Origin: a virus
Virus record (IMG/VR): IMGVR_UViG_3300013126_000174
Coordinates: 1 to 28,996 of that record
Length of the DNA: 28,996 bases
Direction: 5' to 3' (one strand)
The position numbers were made by a program, and so were the translations under genes. The notes below the pieces were generated by a model. That model was not told where the DNA came from and did not search any database. It saw only the letters and a program-made list of their open reading frames with translations. Below are positions 8,171-15,554 of the stretch, piece after piece (position 1 is the first letter of the stretch; every line of letters starts with the position of its first letter).

Positions 8171-8332
8171 ATGTTATTATATTTATCTAATAAAGTTGTT
8201 ATGGAATTTAATTCAGTTTCTGAGACAGCTAATTATTTTAAAGTTAATATTTCTGAAATATCAAAAATAATGAATAAAAATAAAGAATATAAAGGTTTTA
8301 TGTTCAAAACTAAAATAGAAAACAATGGCTAA
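8171..8332 (+). CDS. Small NUMOD1-like helix-turn-helix ORF, probable homing-endonuclease relic
   Basis: A 53-codon open frame between the nrdA terminator and gp25. The protein contains VVMEFNSVSETANYF then KVNISEISKIMN and KGFMFKTK. This matches the NUMOD1 pattern of intron and homing endonucleases: a strand, F-x-S-x-x-E-A, a helix-turn-helix with an I-S-x-I core, then G-[YF]-x-[FW]-[KR]. No HNH or GIY-YIG catalytic domain is present upstream or downstream, so it is either a decayed endonuclease tail or a free-standing DNA-binding protein. Its TAA (8330-8332) overlaps the gp25 start (8325) by 8 bases. An internal ATG at 8201 is an alternative start but would lose the first strand. The domain call is by eye. 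Confidence 0.6.
   Translation: MLLYLSNKVVMEFNSVSETANYFKVNISEISKIMNKNKEYKGFMFKTKIENNG
8178..8186 (+). promoter_or_regulatory. TATATTTAT motif at the start of the late module
   Basis: The same nonamer as at 3490 and 27534 occurs just after the nrdA terminator. A new promoter is required somewhere in 8146-8324 if the terminator works. The motif overlaps the first codons of the small NUMOD1-like ORF, which argues either for the internal start at 8201 or against this being the promoter. Confidence 0.25.
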
Positions 8333-8711
8333 TGGTCGATTTATAAATATAAACTATCCCTTCAAAGATAGTAAAAAAGGGTTTTTCTTGGATTTAACAG
8401 AACAAGACAATCAAGCGATTAAAGCTGATTTATTACATTTAATATTAACTAGAAGAGGTCAAAGATTATACAATCCAGATTTTGGTACAGATTTATTAAG
8501 ATTTATTTTCGAACCAAACGATGCTTTGACTGAAGAAGGTATAAAAGAAGAAATTAAAACAGTAGTTAAAAAATTCTTACCTAAACTAAATTTAAACGAA
8601 ATATTAATAGAACCATCACCAGAATCAGAATATGCTGCGGTGGTTTCAATAAGTTATACAATAACTGACGATGTATTTACATCATCAGACATGATAGTAG
8701 TAAAAATATAA
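8325..8711 (+). CDS. 25: Baseplate wedge protein gp25 (GPW/gp25 family)
   Basis: A baseplate wedge subunit that joins the wedge to the inner tube and sheath initiation site in contractile tails. It has 128 residues; T4 gp25 has 132. The family signature LTRRGQRLYNPDFGTDLLRF (41-60) is clear, followed by IFEPND (61-66) and a conserved helix EGIKEEIKTVVKKFLPKL. The C-terminal VVSISYTITDD forms the last strand. The start ATG lies within the end of the preceding small ORF, and gp6 starts 3 bases after its stop, so the genes are probably translationally coupled. This is the first unambiguous late gene and shows that the phage has a contractile (myovirus-type) tail. Confidence 0.92.
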   Translation: MANGRFININYPFKDSKKGFFLDLTEQDNQAIKADLLHLILTRRGQRLYNPDFGTDLLRFIFEPNDALTEEGIKEEIKTVVKKFLPKLNLNEILIEPSPESEYAAVVSISYTITDDVFTSSDMIVVKI

Positions 8712-8714
8712 AAT

Positions 8715-10538
8715 ATGCCAAATGTAAATTATACATCTAGAAACTTTGCTGACATAAGAACAGATTTAGTTAATTATGTAAGACAATATTATCCAGACAT
8801 TTTTAACGATTTCAATGATGCATCAGTTGGTATGATGCTTTTGGAGTTAAATGCGGCTGTTGGTGACATGTTATCATACAACACAGATAGAATGTTTGCT
8901 GAAACACAAATTGATTATGCAAAAGAAAGAAAATCAATATTATCAATTGCCAGAACTTTTGGGTTAAAAATTCCAGGAAAAAGACCAAGTGCAACCATAG
9001 TTGATTTTAGTGTTACATTACCAGTTTTTGGTGACACATTTGATGTTTCATATGCACCACTTTTAAGAGCTGGGTCACAAGTTTCTGGTTCTGGTAAAAT
9101 ATTTGAATTACAAGATGATGTTGATTTCTCATCACCGTTTAACGTAAACGGTATACATAATCGTATTATTATACCAAATTTTAACGCAAATGGTGCTTTG
9201 ACTAACTATACAATTATCAAAAGAGAAATGGTTATAAATGGTTATAGTAAAATATTAAAAAGAGTAATTTCAGCATCTGATTCAAGACCATTTTTAGAAG
9301 TTATATTACCAGAGAATGATGTATTATCAATCGATTCAATCATAACACTTCCAGGTACATCATACCAAACAACACCAAATATCGACCAATTTTTAGATAT
9401 GGATAATAGATGGTACGAAGTTGATGCTTTAGCTGAAGATAAAGTTTTTATTGAAGATACAACTAGAGGTAGTGACGCATCTGGTGTAAATCCAGGAAAA
9501 TGGGTAAGCACAAACAAAAGATTCATTAGAGAATATACAGATTTAGGGTTCACTAAAATTACTTTTGGTGCTGGTACACAAGACACTTCAAGTTTATGTG
9601 ATTTTGATAGTAACCCAACGTTAGTCAACCAAATTGGTAATTTCATCAATAATATGTCATTAGGTACAATTCCTTCACCAAATACAACAATGTATATAAA
9701 ATATAGAGTTGGTGGAGGACCAGATTCAAATTTAGGGCCTAATGTTATTAGAAGTTTAGGTATTGTTAACATGTCAGTTAATGGTGCCAATTCAAACACC
9801 AACCAATTAGTTAGAAACTCATTAAAAGTTAACAATTTATTTCCAGCAATAGGTGGTAAAGACACCCCTAGTATTGAAGAAATTAGAAATATGGTTAAAT
9901 ATAATTTTGCTGCTCAGAACAGAGCTGTAACTATCAAAGATTACCAAACAAAAATTGCTCAGATACCTGGTAGGTTTGGTGTGCCATTTAGATGTGGTGT
10001 TTTTGAAGAAATGAATAAAATTAAAGTTTACGTTTTAGGTTTAGATTCTAACGGTAGTTTAACAAACCAATCAACAACAACCTTAAAAGAAAACATTTCA
10101 AATTATTTAGCTGATTTTAGAATGTTAAATGATTATGTCCAAGTTACAGATGGTAGAATAGTTAATTTATCAGTTGAATTAGATTTATTCATTGATAAAA
10201 ATGCGCCTCAATCTCAAGTAATATCACAAGCAATTACTGAAATTAAAAATTTCTTTGATATTAATAATTTTGATATGGGTCAAAACATTTATATTTCACC
10301 ATTAGTTGAAATATTAAACAATATTGGTGGTGTGTTAAACGTAATTCAATTAAGATTATTTAATAAAGTTGGGGGTGGTTTATATAGTTTAAATGAGATT
10401 TCACAACCTTATTTAATTGATGATACAAGACAAATAGATATCACAGATATGACAATATATGGTGAAGCAACAACAATGTATGAGATTAAATATCCTAATA
10501 AAGACATTTCAGTTAGAGCTAAACAAACTATGTCTTAA
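8715..10538 (+). CDS. 6: Baseplate wedge protein gp6 (J-like)
   Basis: The main wedge protein of contractile-tail baseplates, which forms the iris-like ring around the hub with gp25 and gp7. It has 607 residues (T4 gp6 has 660). The N-terminus is characteristic: YTSRNFADIRTDLVNYVRQY then DASVGMMLLELNAAVGDML and DRMFAETQIDYAKERKSI, the pattern shared by gp6 and P2 gpJ. The C-terminal half has the J-like AVTIKDYQTKIAQIPGR (about 410) and the VELDLFIDKNAP strand. Its position immediately after gp25 is the usual order. No break is seen. The 65-base gap that follows carries a possible promoter motif. Confidence 0.9.
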   Translation: MPNVNYTSRNFADIRTDLVNYVRQYYPDIFNDFNDASVGMMLLELNAAVGDMLSYNTDRMFAETQIDYAKERKSILSIARTFGLKIPGKRPSATIVDFSVTLPVFGDTFDVSYAPLLRAGSQVSGSGKIFELQDDVDFSSPFNVNGIHNRIIIPNFNANGALTNYTIIKREMVINGYSKILKRVISASDSRPFLEVILPENDVLSIDSIITLPGTSYQTTPNIDQFLDMDNRWYEVDALAEDKVFIEDTTRGSDASGVNPGKWVSTNKRFIREYTDLGFTKITFGAGTQDTSSLCDFDSNPTLVNQIGNFINNMSLGTIPSPNTTMYIKYRVGGGPDSNLGPNVIRSLGIVNMSVNGANSNTNQLVRNSLKVNNLFPAIGGKDTPSIEEIRNMVKYNFAAQNRAVTIKDYQTKIAQIPGRFGVPFRCGVFEEMNKIKVYVLGLDSNGSLTNQSTTTLKENISNYLADFRMLNDYVQVTDGRIVNLSVELDLFIDKNAPQSQVISQAITEIKNFFDINNFDMGQNIYISPLVEILNNIGGVLNVIQLRLFNKVGGGLYSLNEISQPYLIDDTRQIDITDMTIYGEATTMYEIKYPNKDISVRAKQTMS

Positions 10539-10603: not shown

Positions 10604-10960
10604 ATGAGTTGTAATTGTAAAACTAACCAATCAACTAGTGAAACCACTAAAACCGTAGAGAATTATGATAAAAATAGAAGGTTAAGACTAACATTAACTT
10701 ATTCAGCTAAATTTGTTGGATTTTTGTTTTTAATTGTTTTATTACCTTTTATAAACATAATGATTATATGGTTTATGTTCAATACGATTGTTTTAAATAA
10801 AGAAGCAAATGTTGGTCAAATAGTTAAATCATTAGTTGGAAAAAAACGTTTAGGTATAGACGATGATGATGAAGACGATGATGATGATGATTTCGAAGAT
10901 TTAACTGAAGAAGATGTTGTGATGTTAGATGTCGAAGATATAACAGATAGAAGTAAATAA
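10604..10960 (+). CDS. Small membrane protein with a poly-acidic tail
   Basis: A 118-residue protein of unknown function. It has a short Cys-containing N-terminus (MSCNCKTNQ) and a basic patch (KNRRLRL). A long hydrophobic region, FVGFLFLIVLLPFINIMIIW with FMFNTIVL (about 38-65), has a central proline and could form one long or two short membrane spans. The C-terminal half is hydrophilic and contains an Asp/Glu run encoded by a GAT-rich microsatellite (10859-10893). It lies between gp6 and the giant 1529-residue gene, only 4 bases before the latter, so it probably belongs to the tail module or to host-membrane interaction. A holin is conceivable, but the long acidic tail and the location give no particular support. 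Confidence 0.72.
   Translation: MSCNCKTNQSTSETTKTVENYDKNRRLRLTLTYSAKFVGFLFLIVLLPFINIMIIWFMFNTIVLNKEANVGQIVKSLVGKKRLGIDDDDEDDDDDDFEDLTEEDVVMLDVEDITDRSK
10859..10893 (+). repeat. GAT/GAC trinucleotide tract encoding poly-Asp
   Basis: An imperfect run of GAT, GAC and GAA codons encodes a DDDDEDDDDDD-type stretch in the small membrane protein. Such tracts can change length by slipped-strand copying in whole codons. Confidence 0.7.
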
Positions 10961-10964
10961 TTTT

Positions 10965-13900
10965 ATGTCAGAAACAATAAGAATAAGAACGACACCTAAC
11001 GGGAATGACAGTTATCTTAAAGTTAAAATAGACCAAGAATTTGATTTCATTGAAGTTTTATCTTTAAAAATAAGTCAAGAAGAGGCTTATAGAAATTTTT
11101 GTTCTGATTATGGTGCCATTGTCGGGAGAGTAATAATAAATAGTGGATTTGGATTACCAAATGCCAGAGTTAGTGTTTTTATACCTATTGACGAAGAAGA
11201 TAGTAAAAATTCTGTTATTAAGGGGTTATATCCTTATGAAATAATAACAGATAAAGATAGTGATGGTGTAAGATACAATTTATTACCTAAAAATAGCGAA
11301 ACAAACAATGAATGTTTTACTCCAGTTGGTACTTTCCCAAATAAAAGGGAAATACTAGATAACGAAGATTTAGAATACGTATATTGTAAATACTATAAAT
11401 TTACAACGACCACAAATTCAGCTGGTGATTTTATGTTATTTGGTGTACCATTAGGTACATACACAATACATGTTGATGCTGATATTTCTGATATAGGTGT
11501 TGCATCACAAAGACCTTATGATTTAATCAGTCAAGGTACACCACTTAAATTTTTTGAATCGCCAACAAAATTTAAAGGTGGTACAAATTTAGATAAATTG
11601 GTTCAAATCAAGTCAACAAATTACGCTGTTAATGTGCAACCTTTCTGGGGTGATACCGACACATGTGAAGTAGGTATTAGTAGGGCCGATATTGATATGA
11701 ATTATACTATTAGACCATCAGCTATCTTTATGGGTAGTATTTTTGGTGACCAAGATAAACATAGTATAAACAAAAGATGTAGACCTAGAAAAAAACTAGG
11801 TAATTTATGTGAACAAGTAGCTGGTGAAGGTTCCATTGAAATGATTAGAGAAAACGTTGATGGAACAGTTGAACAGTTTGATATAGAAGGTGGAAGAGTT
11901 ATTGATGAAGACGGTACATGGGCTTATCAATTACCAATGAATTTAGATTATGTTATAACTGATGAGTTTGGTAATTTAGTTGCATCAGATGACCCAAATA
12001 AAGGTATACCAACTAGAGCTAGAGTTAGGTTTAGAATCGGTATGGATAACACTGGTGGTGAAGGTAGACTTAGAACTAGAGCTAAATATTTAGTTCCTAA
12101 TAACCCTAGAAATTCAACAGAAGTTGATTATTCGTTTGATGAGACAACTAAAAAAAGTAGTTTTAGAGATTTATATTGGAATAAAATTTATAGTGTTTCT
12201 AACTTTATCCCTAGATTTCAAACAAATAGTTTTAGTGAAACTAGAGCGTTTACTGGTATTAAAGATGTTGATTCATGTGCTGGTGATAAAACACCTTTTC
12301 CTTTCAACAGAGTTAATACCGATTTTAACCCATTATTTTTGATTATATGTTTAATAATCAAAATTATAGCATTTTTAATATATGTTCAAAATAAAGTAAT
12401 TATACCTATAATTAATTTTATAATAACAGTTATAAACATATTAATTGGTTTTTGGAACGGTTTGATAAATAAGCTTTGTGATTTATCAAACTGGGAAGTT
12501 TTAGGTATCAAACCTTTTGGGGCCTTTGATTTTGTTTGTAGTTGGGTGATTACACCTTTAGATTTTGTACCTTGTCAAACAGTAAAATGTCCTTTTGACC
12601 CTACAGAGAGTAAATCATACGCACCTGGTTGTACTTCTAGTAGTAAAGGTTTTCAATCATTGGTAAATAGAGGTGAAAGACCTAATTGTTATCCTGGGGA
12701 TGCATATGGTCATCCAGATAGTATAACTGAATTTGCGGCTGGATTAGATGATTGTATTGCATTTACAATGGCTAGAACATTGAATATTTTTGAATTTGAT
12801 TTTTACAATGATTGGATTAATGGTTCTTTATTTGGTTATTTATTAAAATATAAAAAGAAAAGAAGAAAAAGAGAAGTTTTTTGTGAATACGAATGTTCTG
12901 GTGGTAATTTCACACCAGAAAATGGTGTTGATGGGAACAAAAATAATGTGGGTGATAATGACTGTCGCTCTAATTTTTTATTGGATAGATGTTTTAATAG
13001 TGACAATAACACCAGCAGCAATGGTAAAAACTCACAAAATACAACTTACAGTAGAAATTTAACTGAAGGGTTGATTAAAAAATTAGATATATTCAGAAAT
13101 GGTAAAAAAATAAGTGAAGAGTTTTATTATGCAGCTACAAGACATAATGTAAACGATAAATTATTTGCTACCGATGTTATTTGTCTAGGTTCAGTATTTG
13201 ATTGTGATTGGCAAGGAATTCCAAAAATACAACAATTATTAATCCCAACAACTTATAAAACACCACCAGACACATTTGAACCAACAGATGACAATAAAAT
13301 AGAAACTACTGGTATGGTAGGGGAAGGTGGTAACACTAGAGGTTTATTCTTTGAGGTTAATTGTATTGGGGTACATTCTGATTATCAACAAGTATTAAAC
13401 ATGCGTCACATTTGTGAAATGGGTGTTGATTTAGATGAATTAAGATATATTACTAGTTTTGGTAGTAATACTTTAACACCAGAATATCCAGATGCTATTA
13501 TTAGTGTTAAAGATATTGATGAAACTGGTGGTAAATGGTTTAGAGATGTTTTTTATGGTGTAAATAAAGATATGCCAACATCAGTTACAAGTTTTAACTA
13601 TGGTGCTACATACACTACTGATTTTAACTTACAATCACAAGCCGCTTACCCTTTTGCTACTGTAGGTAGCAATCAAAACGGTCAAAACTATATTGATTTT
13701 AGAGGTTATCCATCTAATAGTAATAATGGGTTCGGTCAGCCAAAACATTCGTTCTACTTCTATTTTGGAATTTCACCAAGTAAAAGTGCTTTGGAAAAAA
13801 TGAACCAAAGATTTTTCACTAGATGTTATCCAAAACCAGAAAAAGAATTTAATATAATTGCGAGTAGTATAGCCGCAACATTAAACAATCCAACAGTCGG

Positions 13901-15554
13901 TAGTTTAACATTCTCTGTCGTTTCTGGTACTGGCCCATACACTTATACAATAAGTGGACCAAATGGATATAATACTACTGGAACGATTAGTTTAGATAAT
14001 AACGGTAATCCAATTCCAGTTACAATAAACGGTAATACTGGTTCATATAACATAGAAGTAGTTGATGCTAATGGTAATGTTTCGACAACAACAATTAGTA
14101 TTGATGGTTTACCAGCGTTATTTGCAACAGCTAAAGTTACTAAAAATTGTTCAACAGTGACTACACCAGATGGTCAAATAACTATTGATAGTTTAGGTGG
14201 TGGTAGTGGTTCTTATACATTTACTTTATATAAAAATGATGGTACTACGGTTGTTAATGGACCAACAAATATATCAACATCTTCAATACCAGTTCAAATT
14301 AATGGTTTACTTACAAATATAGATAGTGATGGTTTAAATCCACCATCTTTTGGTTATGTATTAAAAGTGAGTGATAGTACATCCACTATTACTATTAAAA
14401 ACTTAAAGGTTGAAGGACCAACACCATTGGTATTAACTCAATCAACAAACCCAACTGAAAATAAACAGACAACATGTTGGGGGAGTGCTGATGGTGCTTT
14501 TAAATTTACCCTTGCTGGAGGTATAGCACCATATACTATAACAACAACTGGACCAGCAACATTTGGTAGTAATAGTTCTTTAGTTTCAACAACAGCCACT
14601 AGAGGTCAATATACTATAACTGTTGTTGATGCATTTGGTACTACGTTGGTACAGAATTTTAATGTAACATCTAAAAACGCACAAATGGTTGCACAATTAG
14701 CGAGTACTACTGCTATGGCTAAACAATGTAACCCTAATAATTACATTATTCCATTTAAAATAACTAGTGGTGCACCATTGGCTCAAAACGCTACTTTACC
14801 TTCAAATATTGTTGTACAATATAATATAAATGGTAATTTAGATAGTAATAGTAATCCAATATTCACACAAGTTCCAACAGCTATATATCAAAATGCTAGT
14901 GGTGATGTGTTGATAACAATACCTAAATCAGTAACAATGTCATCTGGTACATCTAATTTAACTAAATTTAGATTAAGATTTGTATCATTAGATGGATTAT
15001 GTTACAGTAATGAAATACAAGTATTGGAATCTCAAATAAGATTACCAAATACAACATTAAGTATTAACTTTAGTGGTATAAATAATGCTAGACAATGTAA
15101 CCCTAATGTTGTTTCATTTAAGTTTAACATATCACATATTCCATTTGGTGCTGTTTCTGGAGCTGATTCAACTAGATATCCATATACATTTAGTTATAAA
15201 GTAAATGGAGTACAAAAACCGTTGGTTACATTTAATACATTAGCTGCGGTACAACAAGGAATCACAACTACAATGCCTAGTGTTACCAATAACGCTAACA
15301 TAAGATATGTAATAACAGATAGCAAAGGGTGTACGGCTAGTGGTTCATTTAATATAACAATGCCAACTGCTATATTGAATGCTACTTGGAGTTATAATAA
15401 TTCAGCTAATCCACAAACCAAAGCGTTGAACGTTACTGGAGGTATACCACCATATACGTATTCACCAGCAATATCTTCACTTAAATCAGTTAAACAAATA
15501 ATTACTGTTACTGATAGTAAAGGTTGTACATTTATAACACCATTAAGCGCATAA
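10965..15554 (+). CDS. Giant virion-type protein with hydrophobic core segment and SprB-like repeats
   Basis: A 1529-residue protein, probably a baseplate or tail adhesin. The N-terminal 200 residues include a carboxypeptidase-regulatory/Cna-B-like fold: AIVGRVIINSGFGLPNARVS then SAGDFMLFGVPLGTYTIHV. Residues 457-505 are almost entirely hydrophobic (LFLIICLIIKIIAFLIY, then VIIPIINFIITVINILIGFW), enough for two membrane spans. A polybasic KYKKKRRKR follows at 628-636. From about residue 965 to the end come roughly six beta-sandwich units resembling SprB repeats, with GTGPYTYTISG, GGIAPYTITTTG and GGIPPYTYSP paired with YTITVVDAFG and ITVTDSKGCT. Units 4 and 5 share a Q-C-N-P-N start. It lies just after the small membrane protein, and the next gene starts 6 bases later. 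Function and virion location are inferred; the repeat family was assigned by eye. Confidence 0.85.
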   Translation: MSETIRIRTTPNGNDSYLKVKIDQEFDFIEVLSLKISQEEAYRNFCSDYGAIVGRVIINSGFGLPNARVSVFIPIDEEDSKNSVIKGLYPYEIITDKDSDGVRYNLLPKNSETNNECFTPVGTFPNKREILDNEDLEYVYCKYYKFTTTTNSAGDFMLFGVPLGTYTIHVDADISDIGVASQRPYDLISQGTPLKFFESPTKFKGGTNLDKLVQIKSTNYAVNVQPFWGDTDTCEVGISRADIDMNYTIRPSAIFMGSIFGDQDKHSINKRCRPRKKLGNLCEQVAGEGSIEMIRENVDGTVEQFDIEGGRVIDEDGTWAYQLPMNLDYVITDEFGNLVASDDPNKGIPTRARVRFRIGMDNTGGEGRLRTRAKYLVPNNPRNSTEVDYSFDETTKKSSFRDLYWNKIYSVSNFIPRFQTNSFSETRAFTGIKDVDSCAGDKTPFPFNRVNTDFNPLFLIICLIIKIIAFLIYVQNKVIIPIINFIITVINILIGFWNGLINKLCDLSNWEVLGIKPFGAFDFVCSWVITPLDFVPCQTVKCPFDPTESKSYAPGCTSSSKGFQSLVNRGERPNCYPGDAYGHPDSITEFAAGLDDCIAFTMARTLNIFEFDFYNDWINGSLFGYLLKYKKKRRKREVFCEYECSGGNFTPENGVDGNKNNVGDNDCRSNFLLDRCFNSDNNTSSNGKNSQNTTYSRNLTEGLIKKLDIFRNGKKISEEFYYAATRHNVNDKLFATDVICLGSVFDCDWQGIPKIQQLLIPTTYKTPPDTFEPTDDNKIETTGMVGEGGNTRGLFFEVNCIGVHSDYQQVLNMRHICEMGVDLDELRYITSFGSNTLTPEYPDAIISVKDIDETGGKWFRDVFYGVNKDMPTSVTSFNYGATYTTDFNLQSQAAYPFATVGSNQNGQNYIDFRGYPSNSNNGFGQPKHSFYFYFGISPSKSALEKMNQRFFTRCYPKPEKEFNIIASSIAATLNNPTVGSLTFSVVSGTGPYTYTISGPNGYNTTGTISLDNNGNPIPVTINGNTGSYNIEVVDANGNVSTTTISIDGLPALFATAKVTKNCSTVTTPDGQITIDSLGGGSGSYTFTLYKNDGTTVVNGPTNISTSSIPVQINGLLTNIDSDGLNPPSFGYVLKVSDSTSTITIKNLKVEGPTPLVLTQSTNPTENKQTTCWGSADGAFKFTLAGGIAPYTITTTGPATFGSNSSLVSTTATRGQYTITVVDAFGTTLVQNFNVTSKNAQMVAQLASTTAMAKQCNPNNYIIPFKITSGAPLAQNATLPSNIVVQYNINGNLDSNSNPIFTQVPTAIYQNASGDVLITIPKSVTMSSGTSNLTKFRLRFVSLDGLCYSNEIQVLESQIRLPNTTLSINFSGINNARQCNPNVVSFKFNISHIPFGAVSGADSTRYPYTFSYKVNGVQKPLVTFNTLAAVQQGITTTMPSVTNNANIRYVITDSKGCTASGSFNITMPTAILNATWSYNNSANPQTKALNVTGGIPPYTYSPAISSLKSVKQIITVTDSKGCTFITPLSA
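13850..15551 (+). repeat. C-terminal array of SprB-like beta-sandwich repeats (protein level)
   Basis: About six diverged units of 60-115 residues. The hallmark is G-G/T-x-x-P-Y-T-[YI] followed, about 30-45 residues later, by Y-x-[IV]-x-V-x-D-x-x-G-[CN]. The clearest are the units around 13930-14080, 14515-14640 and 15430-15530. The exact 16-mer ACAATGTAACCCTAAT at 14723-14738 and 15092-15107 marks a duplication of units 4 and 5. Confidence 0.65.

Follow-up and report, generated by a model that had tools for sequence, protein, structure and literature searches.

Among the closest described systems are the SprB repeat proteins (PF13573), which include the gliding adhesin SprB of Flavobacterium johnsoniae, a protein of 6497 residues (PMC9870892), and other surface proteins of Bacteroidota. 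They are built of tandem Ig-like units with the common pattern GGxxPYTY ... Y.V.V.D..GC. SprB-like structures on the host surface matter to phages, since gliding mutants show greater phage resistance (PMC5682007) and the gliding machinery has been proposed as a phage receptor (PMC7345892). Ig-like domains are also a known theme on phage particles: the T5 pb10 decoration protein, T4 Hoc and the neck whisker protein gp24 all carry PKD/Ig-like beta-sandwich units, and share single-unit similarity with the protein described here. These virion proteins, however, have few units and sit on the capsid or neck, whereas here a string of SprB-type domains, nearer to host SprB, is attached to a baseplate-cluster protein; it is a variant of the theme. 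The tandem BACON repeats of crAssphage are a comparable case, in which a phage protein carries several copies of a domain associated with Bacteroidetes, but the domain family and the phage group are different ones (PMC6949934). A literature search found no paper tying the term 'SprB repeat' to phage proteins, while one uncultured phage protein among the predicted viral structures of BFVD already bears that name.

SprB repeats do occur in another phage genome, that of the 642-kb uncultured phage LR756502.1, but as part of a full SprB-type, T9SS-secreted adhesin and not of a baseplate protein. This adhesin (L129:9838-14847, about 514378-519387) has 1670 residues, a signal-peptide-like start, 13 SprB repeats (311 bits), a CHU_C domain and a T9SS type B domain (TIGR04131, 50.1 bits against a cut-off of 35), and over 1009 residues it shares 45% identity with a protein of Bacteroidota. 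The flanking open reading frames look like T4-type topoisomerases by eye.

The DNA analyzed here (the window) is a stretch of 28,996 bases from an IMG/VR virus record, with all genes in one direction; its features given below lie on the plus strand. It encodes a 1529-residue protein (10965-15554) that combines a conserved baseplate-cluster core with an SprB-like Ig tail. A preliminary description had noticed SprB-like hallmark units in the C-terminal third, and both motif counts and profile searches confirm them. The motif P-Y-T-[YI] occurs three times within residues 963-1529 (at 991, 1189 and 1496) and V-x-D-x-x-G-[CN] twice (at 1032 and 1515), against means of 0.02 and 0.01 in same-residue shuffles; among 20,000 shuffles the P-Y-T-[YI] count is never reached and the V-x-D-x-x-G-[CN] count about once. 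Neither motif is present in the core. Residues 963-1529 (13851-15551) alone score 35.4 bits against PF13573 (E 8e-9), over the curated cut-off of 28 bits, and the whole protein falls slightly under it (26.4 bits, E 5e-6). Single PF13573 stretches, of 18-21 bits, lie at 13899-13964, 14160-14240, 14466-14561 and 15426-15464, and the search across the window gave no stretch outside this open reading frame. The segment therefore has a score at the level of the family as well as the tandem pattern GGxxPYTY plus V.D..G[CN], which is based on the four stretches and on motif counts far over the shuffles, with D1, D3 and D6 (see below) as the clear units.

A scan of IMG/VR identified 106 relatives of the protein, of which 80 were kept, on contigs of up to 362 kb. 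In an alignment of 45 proteins the conserved core (residues 1-954; 10965-13826) stops sharply at residue 954 and is followed by a C-terminal tail of 1 to 630 residues. The boundary at residue 955 is marked by 'LxKMNxxFFTxC', and identity to the window protein over 41 relatives is 48-70% in the cores and 21-51% in the tails. The SprB-like units are thus present as first described, but by this homologue boundary the tail begins earlier, at residue 955 (nucleotide 13827).

The AlphaFold2 model of the tail, computed from a 41-row alignment (pLDDT 89), predicts an all-beta chain of about six Ig-like beta-sandwich domains over residues 955-1529 (13827-15551). Each was scored against host SprB units and against nine ordinary phage Ig units, z values being means. 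D1 (residues 955-1048; 13827-14108) contains the first PF13573 stretch, is found in 41 of 41 tails and scores z 5.6 against host SprB and 3.2 against phage Ig. D3 (residues 1153-1237; 14421-14675), with the best PF13573 stretch (14466-14561), scores 8.1 versus 3.6, and the terminal unit D6 (residues 1468-1529; 15366-15551), with the last stretch, 6.7 versus 3.2. These three are clearly SprB-like. D2 (residues 1049-1152; 14109-14420; stretch 14160-14240) and D5 (residues 1362-1467; 15048-15365; delimited by the predicted strands) are weakly so, at 2.3 versus 1.4 and 2.5 versus 1.9, respectively. D4 (residues 1238-1361; 14676-15047), likewise delimited by predicted strands, is a divergent beta domain with z about 0 and no SprB signal. 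The proposed make-up of repeated units therefore applies to D1, D3 and D6, faintly to D2 and D5, and not to D4. Structural matches of the tail model (Foldseek and VIA-align) are strings of Ig, FnIII and MG domains, with bacterial adhesins and the grappling-hook protein GhpA of Aureispira (Bacteroidota) among them. Such matches of a predicted model reflect a common fold, not a function. The predicted Ig-like fold, of the kind known from virion domains, is borne out by AlphaFold2 and Foldseek, and decoration and whisker proteins are also matched at the profile level.

At the sequence level, the affinity of the tail for SprB is real. PF13573 is the main family in the tails of the IMG/VR relatives, matching 39 of 41 (best E 2.6e-25), and a unit HMM built from Bacteroidota SprB units alone matches 40 of 41 tails but none of the 42 cores; of 861 control sequences made by shuffling or reversal, it matches 2. 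In blastp against host open reading frames with SprB repeats all 41 tails match, with E values from 1e-4 (L059) to 1e-59 (L073). The L073 tail is 39% identical to a Bacteroidota SprB-repeat protein over 496 residues, and the window tail is 27% identical to such a protein over 281 residues (E 4e-11). Against this, the tail might have no special link to the host proteins and be made of ordinary Ig-like (PKD-type) phage domains, whose likeness to SprB would reflect shared membership in one large superfamily. The host SprB-unit profile also matches, in the PDB, the T5-type decoration protein (38 bits), neck whisker gp24 (35 bits) and other phage Ig proteins, and single decoration and whisker units reach 27 and 23 bits against PF13573, no worse than the single stretches of the window protein. 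Moreover, D2 and D5 do not separate host SprB from phage Ig and D4 is related to neither set. We consider this reading rather unlikely: D1, D3 and D6 are closer to host SprB than to the nine phage Ig units, with size-matched draws in agreement (P 0.99-1.00), and the long alignments of tails to host proteins span multiple units. All 40 sampled tail units lean to the host side, in a sample picked with a host HMM. The units of SprB and the Ig units of phages appear to belong to a single superfamily.

The preliminary description had also proposed that the domains may have been borrowed from a host surface adhesin, which the phylogeny of units does not establish. In the unit tree the D1s of all phages cluster by position, as do the D3s; the grouping takes 2 changes for D1 and 4 for D3, where shuffles need 28 and 32. 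This grouping suggests an old, inherited array, in a tree that is poorly resolved and has too few columns to settle the direction of transfer. Single SprB units, in addition, are similar to Ig domains from phages that infect other hosts. Transfer of SprB-type domains from host to phage is plausible.

The tail shares with SprB repeat proteins its tandem Ig-like units and similarity over several of them, but differs in having about six divergent units, a baseplate-cluster core and no T9SS sorting domain. The 1529-residue protein is not itself an SprB adhesin, because no T9SS sorting domain (TIGR04131 or TIGR04183) was found in it; its N-terminus, MSETIRIRTTPNGNDSYLKVKI, looks charged rather than hydrophobic when read by eye, with no apparent signal peptide. 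Sorting domains suspected in six tails were judged to be chance matches, those examined being sub-threshold and lying on SprB units; the Por_Secre_tail matches among relatives are under the Pfam cut-off and overlie an SprB unit. The last tail unit of one relative (L078:7167-8408) passes TIGR04183 (T9SS type A) with 26.5 bits against a cut-off of 23 and overlaps an Ig-like unit, probably also by chance.

The gene neighborhood points to a role in the baseplate. Upstream in the window lies a T4-like set of replication and nucleotide genes, including a UvsX-like recombinase and NrdA/NrdB, followed by gp25, gp6 and large proteins. The gp25-like baseplate protein (128 residues; 8325-8711) is assigned by its position and matched in 54 of 63 loci; in the Flavobacterium phage immuto a 'baseplate assembly protein' stands immediately ahead of gp6. 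The gp6-like baseplate wedge protein (8715-10538) matches the immuto 'baseplate wedge protein' in tblastn (E 3e-58) and is syntenic across the loci. Among the 63 relatives with loci long enough for gene order, gut loci included, the row gp25, gp6, core, o596, o283, o280, o307, o899 is constant wherever covered, with the exception of a few odd placements of gp25 and nrdA. The core occupies the position of T4 gp7, right after gp6, with a 118-residue open reading frame intervening in many loci (37 of 63; 10604-10960 in the window). This small protein, between gp6 and core, has a TM-like segment (hydropathy 2.8) and an acidic C-terminus. The core shows no homology to T4 gp7 (hhalign probability 0.1%), and homology was rejected for both gp7 and gp10, as well as for the syntenic-looking proteins of immuto and of Microcystis phage Mel-JY01. 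From the T4-type gp25-gp6 synteny, the 1529-residue protein is probably a baseplate protein, its exact role being assigned by position; its earlier label as virion-type is likewise drawn from gene order.

The predicted structure of the core (pLDDT 84, pTM 0.82) has one full-length match in BFVD, to A0A8S5LA66 from Myoviridae sp. ctPuP5 (32% identity, E 6e-86); structure searches reported no solved full-length relative. Residues 46-249, approximately (11100-11711), form a predicted CarboxypepD-regulatory/transthyretin-like domain (PF13620), which is detected in 31 of 42 cores at E<=0.01, the window core being sub-threshold, and which aligns to carboxypeptidase N with a VIA Z score of 7.7 (rmsd 2.1, 79 aligned). 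Residues 456-508 (12330-12488) form a long hydrophobic helix, TM-like at its start, in the AlphaFold2 model as read by DSSP, and all 46 of the 46 cores, those of the gut relatives among them, have a hydrophobic stretch at the same position. In the window copy, Asn recurs along this helix at a spacing of about seven residues. A TM-like helix is unusual for a baseplate protein, and it could be a buried helix of an oligomer or a membrane-inserting element.

The conserved helix would also suit a membrane protein: the infected cell might produce the protein and take it up into its membrane through this helix, without its entering the virion. Although the presence of the helix in every core and of a TM protein next door agrees with such an arrangement, we regard it as very improbable: neither a signal peptide (by eye) nor a T9SS sorting domain was seen, the gene holds a fixed place in the baseplate row, and T4 gp7, a true baseplate protein, likewise carries a stretch annotated as integral membrane.

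The SprB-like repeats had been taken as a pointer to the host phylum. A Bacteroidota host is supported without them, because UvsX has its sole matches among 50,697 phage records in Flavobacterium phages (immuto, 34% identity), immuto is among the few matches of gp6, and the best matches of NrdA are to Cellulophaga and Tenacibaculum phages. In a survey of Bacteroidota, Bacillota (the phylum of locus L088, titled Clostridiales) and control genomes, PF13573 is over its cut-off in 44 of 198, 0 of 199 and 0 of 14 genomes, respectively. The pointer to Bacteroidota is supported by UvsX, NrdA and these counts, but a single SprB-unit match does not by itself fix the phylum, because such units resemble Ig domains of phages with other hosts.

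We favor, at a probability of roughly 0.6, the interpretation that the protein is a conserved component of the baseplate periphery in a clade of T4-like myophages infecting Bacteroidota. Residues 1-954 would dock the protein in the baseplate, and residues 955-1529 would point outward as a string of SprB-repeat-type Ig-like domains. This adsorption arm would contact the host surface, a polysaccharide or a surface protein, weakly and multivalently, and would be modular, fast-diversifying, and lost or swapped in other members of the clade. The observations behind this interpretation are the sequence relation to SprB, the predicted Ig fold, the sharp boundary, the loss or replacement of the tail, its lower conservation and the fixed synteny beside gp6; from them we infer location in the virion, projection, binding and ligand. 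Cell attachment by the tail, as first proposed, is likely. The arm might instead bind environmental or host-secreted polysaccharide, tethering particles near cells in a mucus-like manner and not through a cell receptor. Ig domains on phages are a known theme (for example, PMC6867891) and SprB itself is an adhesin (PMC9870892), but a position by gp6 in the baseplate cluster suits cell contact more than capsid decoration, and we hold such tethering to be quite unlikely. It is a doubtful extension of the adsorption-arm interpretation that a whole clade of Bacteroidota phages took up the host's gliding-adhesin repeat as a baseplate receptor-binding arm; these phages would then share the binding targets of SprB, either host glycans or the gliding machinery, and would exchange the module when their hosts change.

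The tail has diversified faster than the core. In 550 of 550 pairs, tail identity is lower than core identity, and among close pairs the means are 78% for the core and 57% for the tail, falling from 69% in D1 and 63% in D2 to 50-56% in D3-D6. The gradient from D1 to D6 is consistent with an arm that faces, at its outer end, a target subject to change; weaker conservation of the tail could also reflect relaxed constraint instead of selection.

To our knowledge, few receptors or receptor-binding proteins have been described for uncultured phages of Bacteroidota. The tail is a candidate module for adhesion in a clade that is widespread and that offers natural controls in its members with no tail or with another tail, and it adds to the evidence that Bacteroidota phages share adhesion domains with the surface proteins of their hosts. 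Two relatives of the aquatic clade (L043 and L065) stop at the boundary and have no tail, and in L043 the downstream gene starts at most 3 bases from the end of the core. Four rumen or gut MAG contigs (L087, L088, L089 and L091) encode the core within open frames of 1452-2439 residues, with unrelated tails that lack SprB units. In a midpoint-rooted core tree the deepest branch separates these four from the others and the tail-less members are nested within the SprB-tailed clade, so the simplest reading is that the ancestor was tailed and the tail was lost twice. L059, labeled tail-less in that tree, has an 86-residue tail, which both inspection by eye and blastp show to be a single SprB-like unit. 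INPHARED contains no isolated phage with the 1529-residue protein or with the tail of the window, and among 395 genomes of the phylum that were searched, the core turned up solely in the MAG used as centre. In one further relative (L041:995-5668) the core/tail gene, 73% identical at its start, is broken into three open frames, through either real decay or an assembly error.
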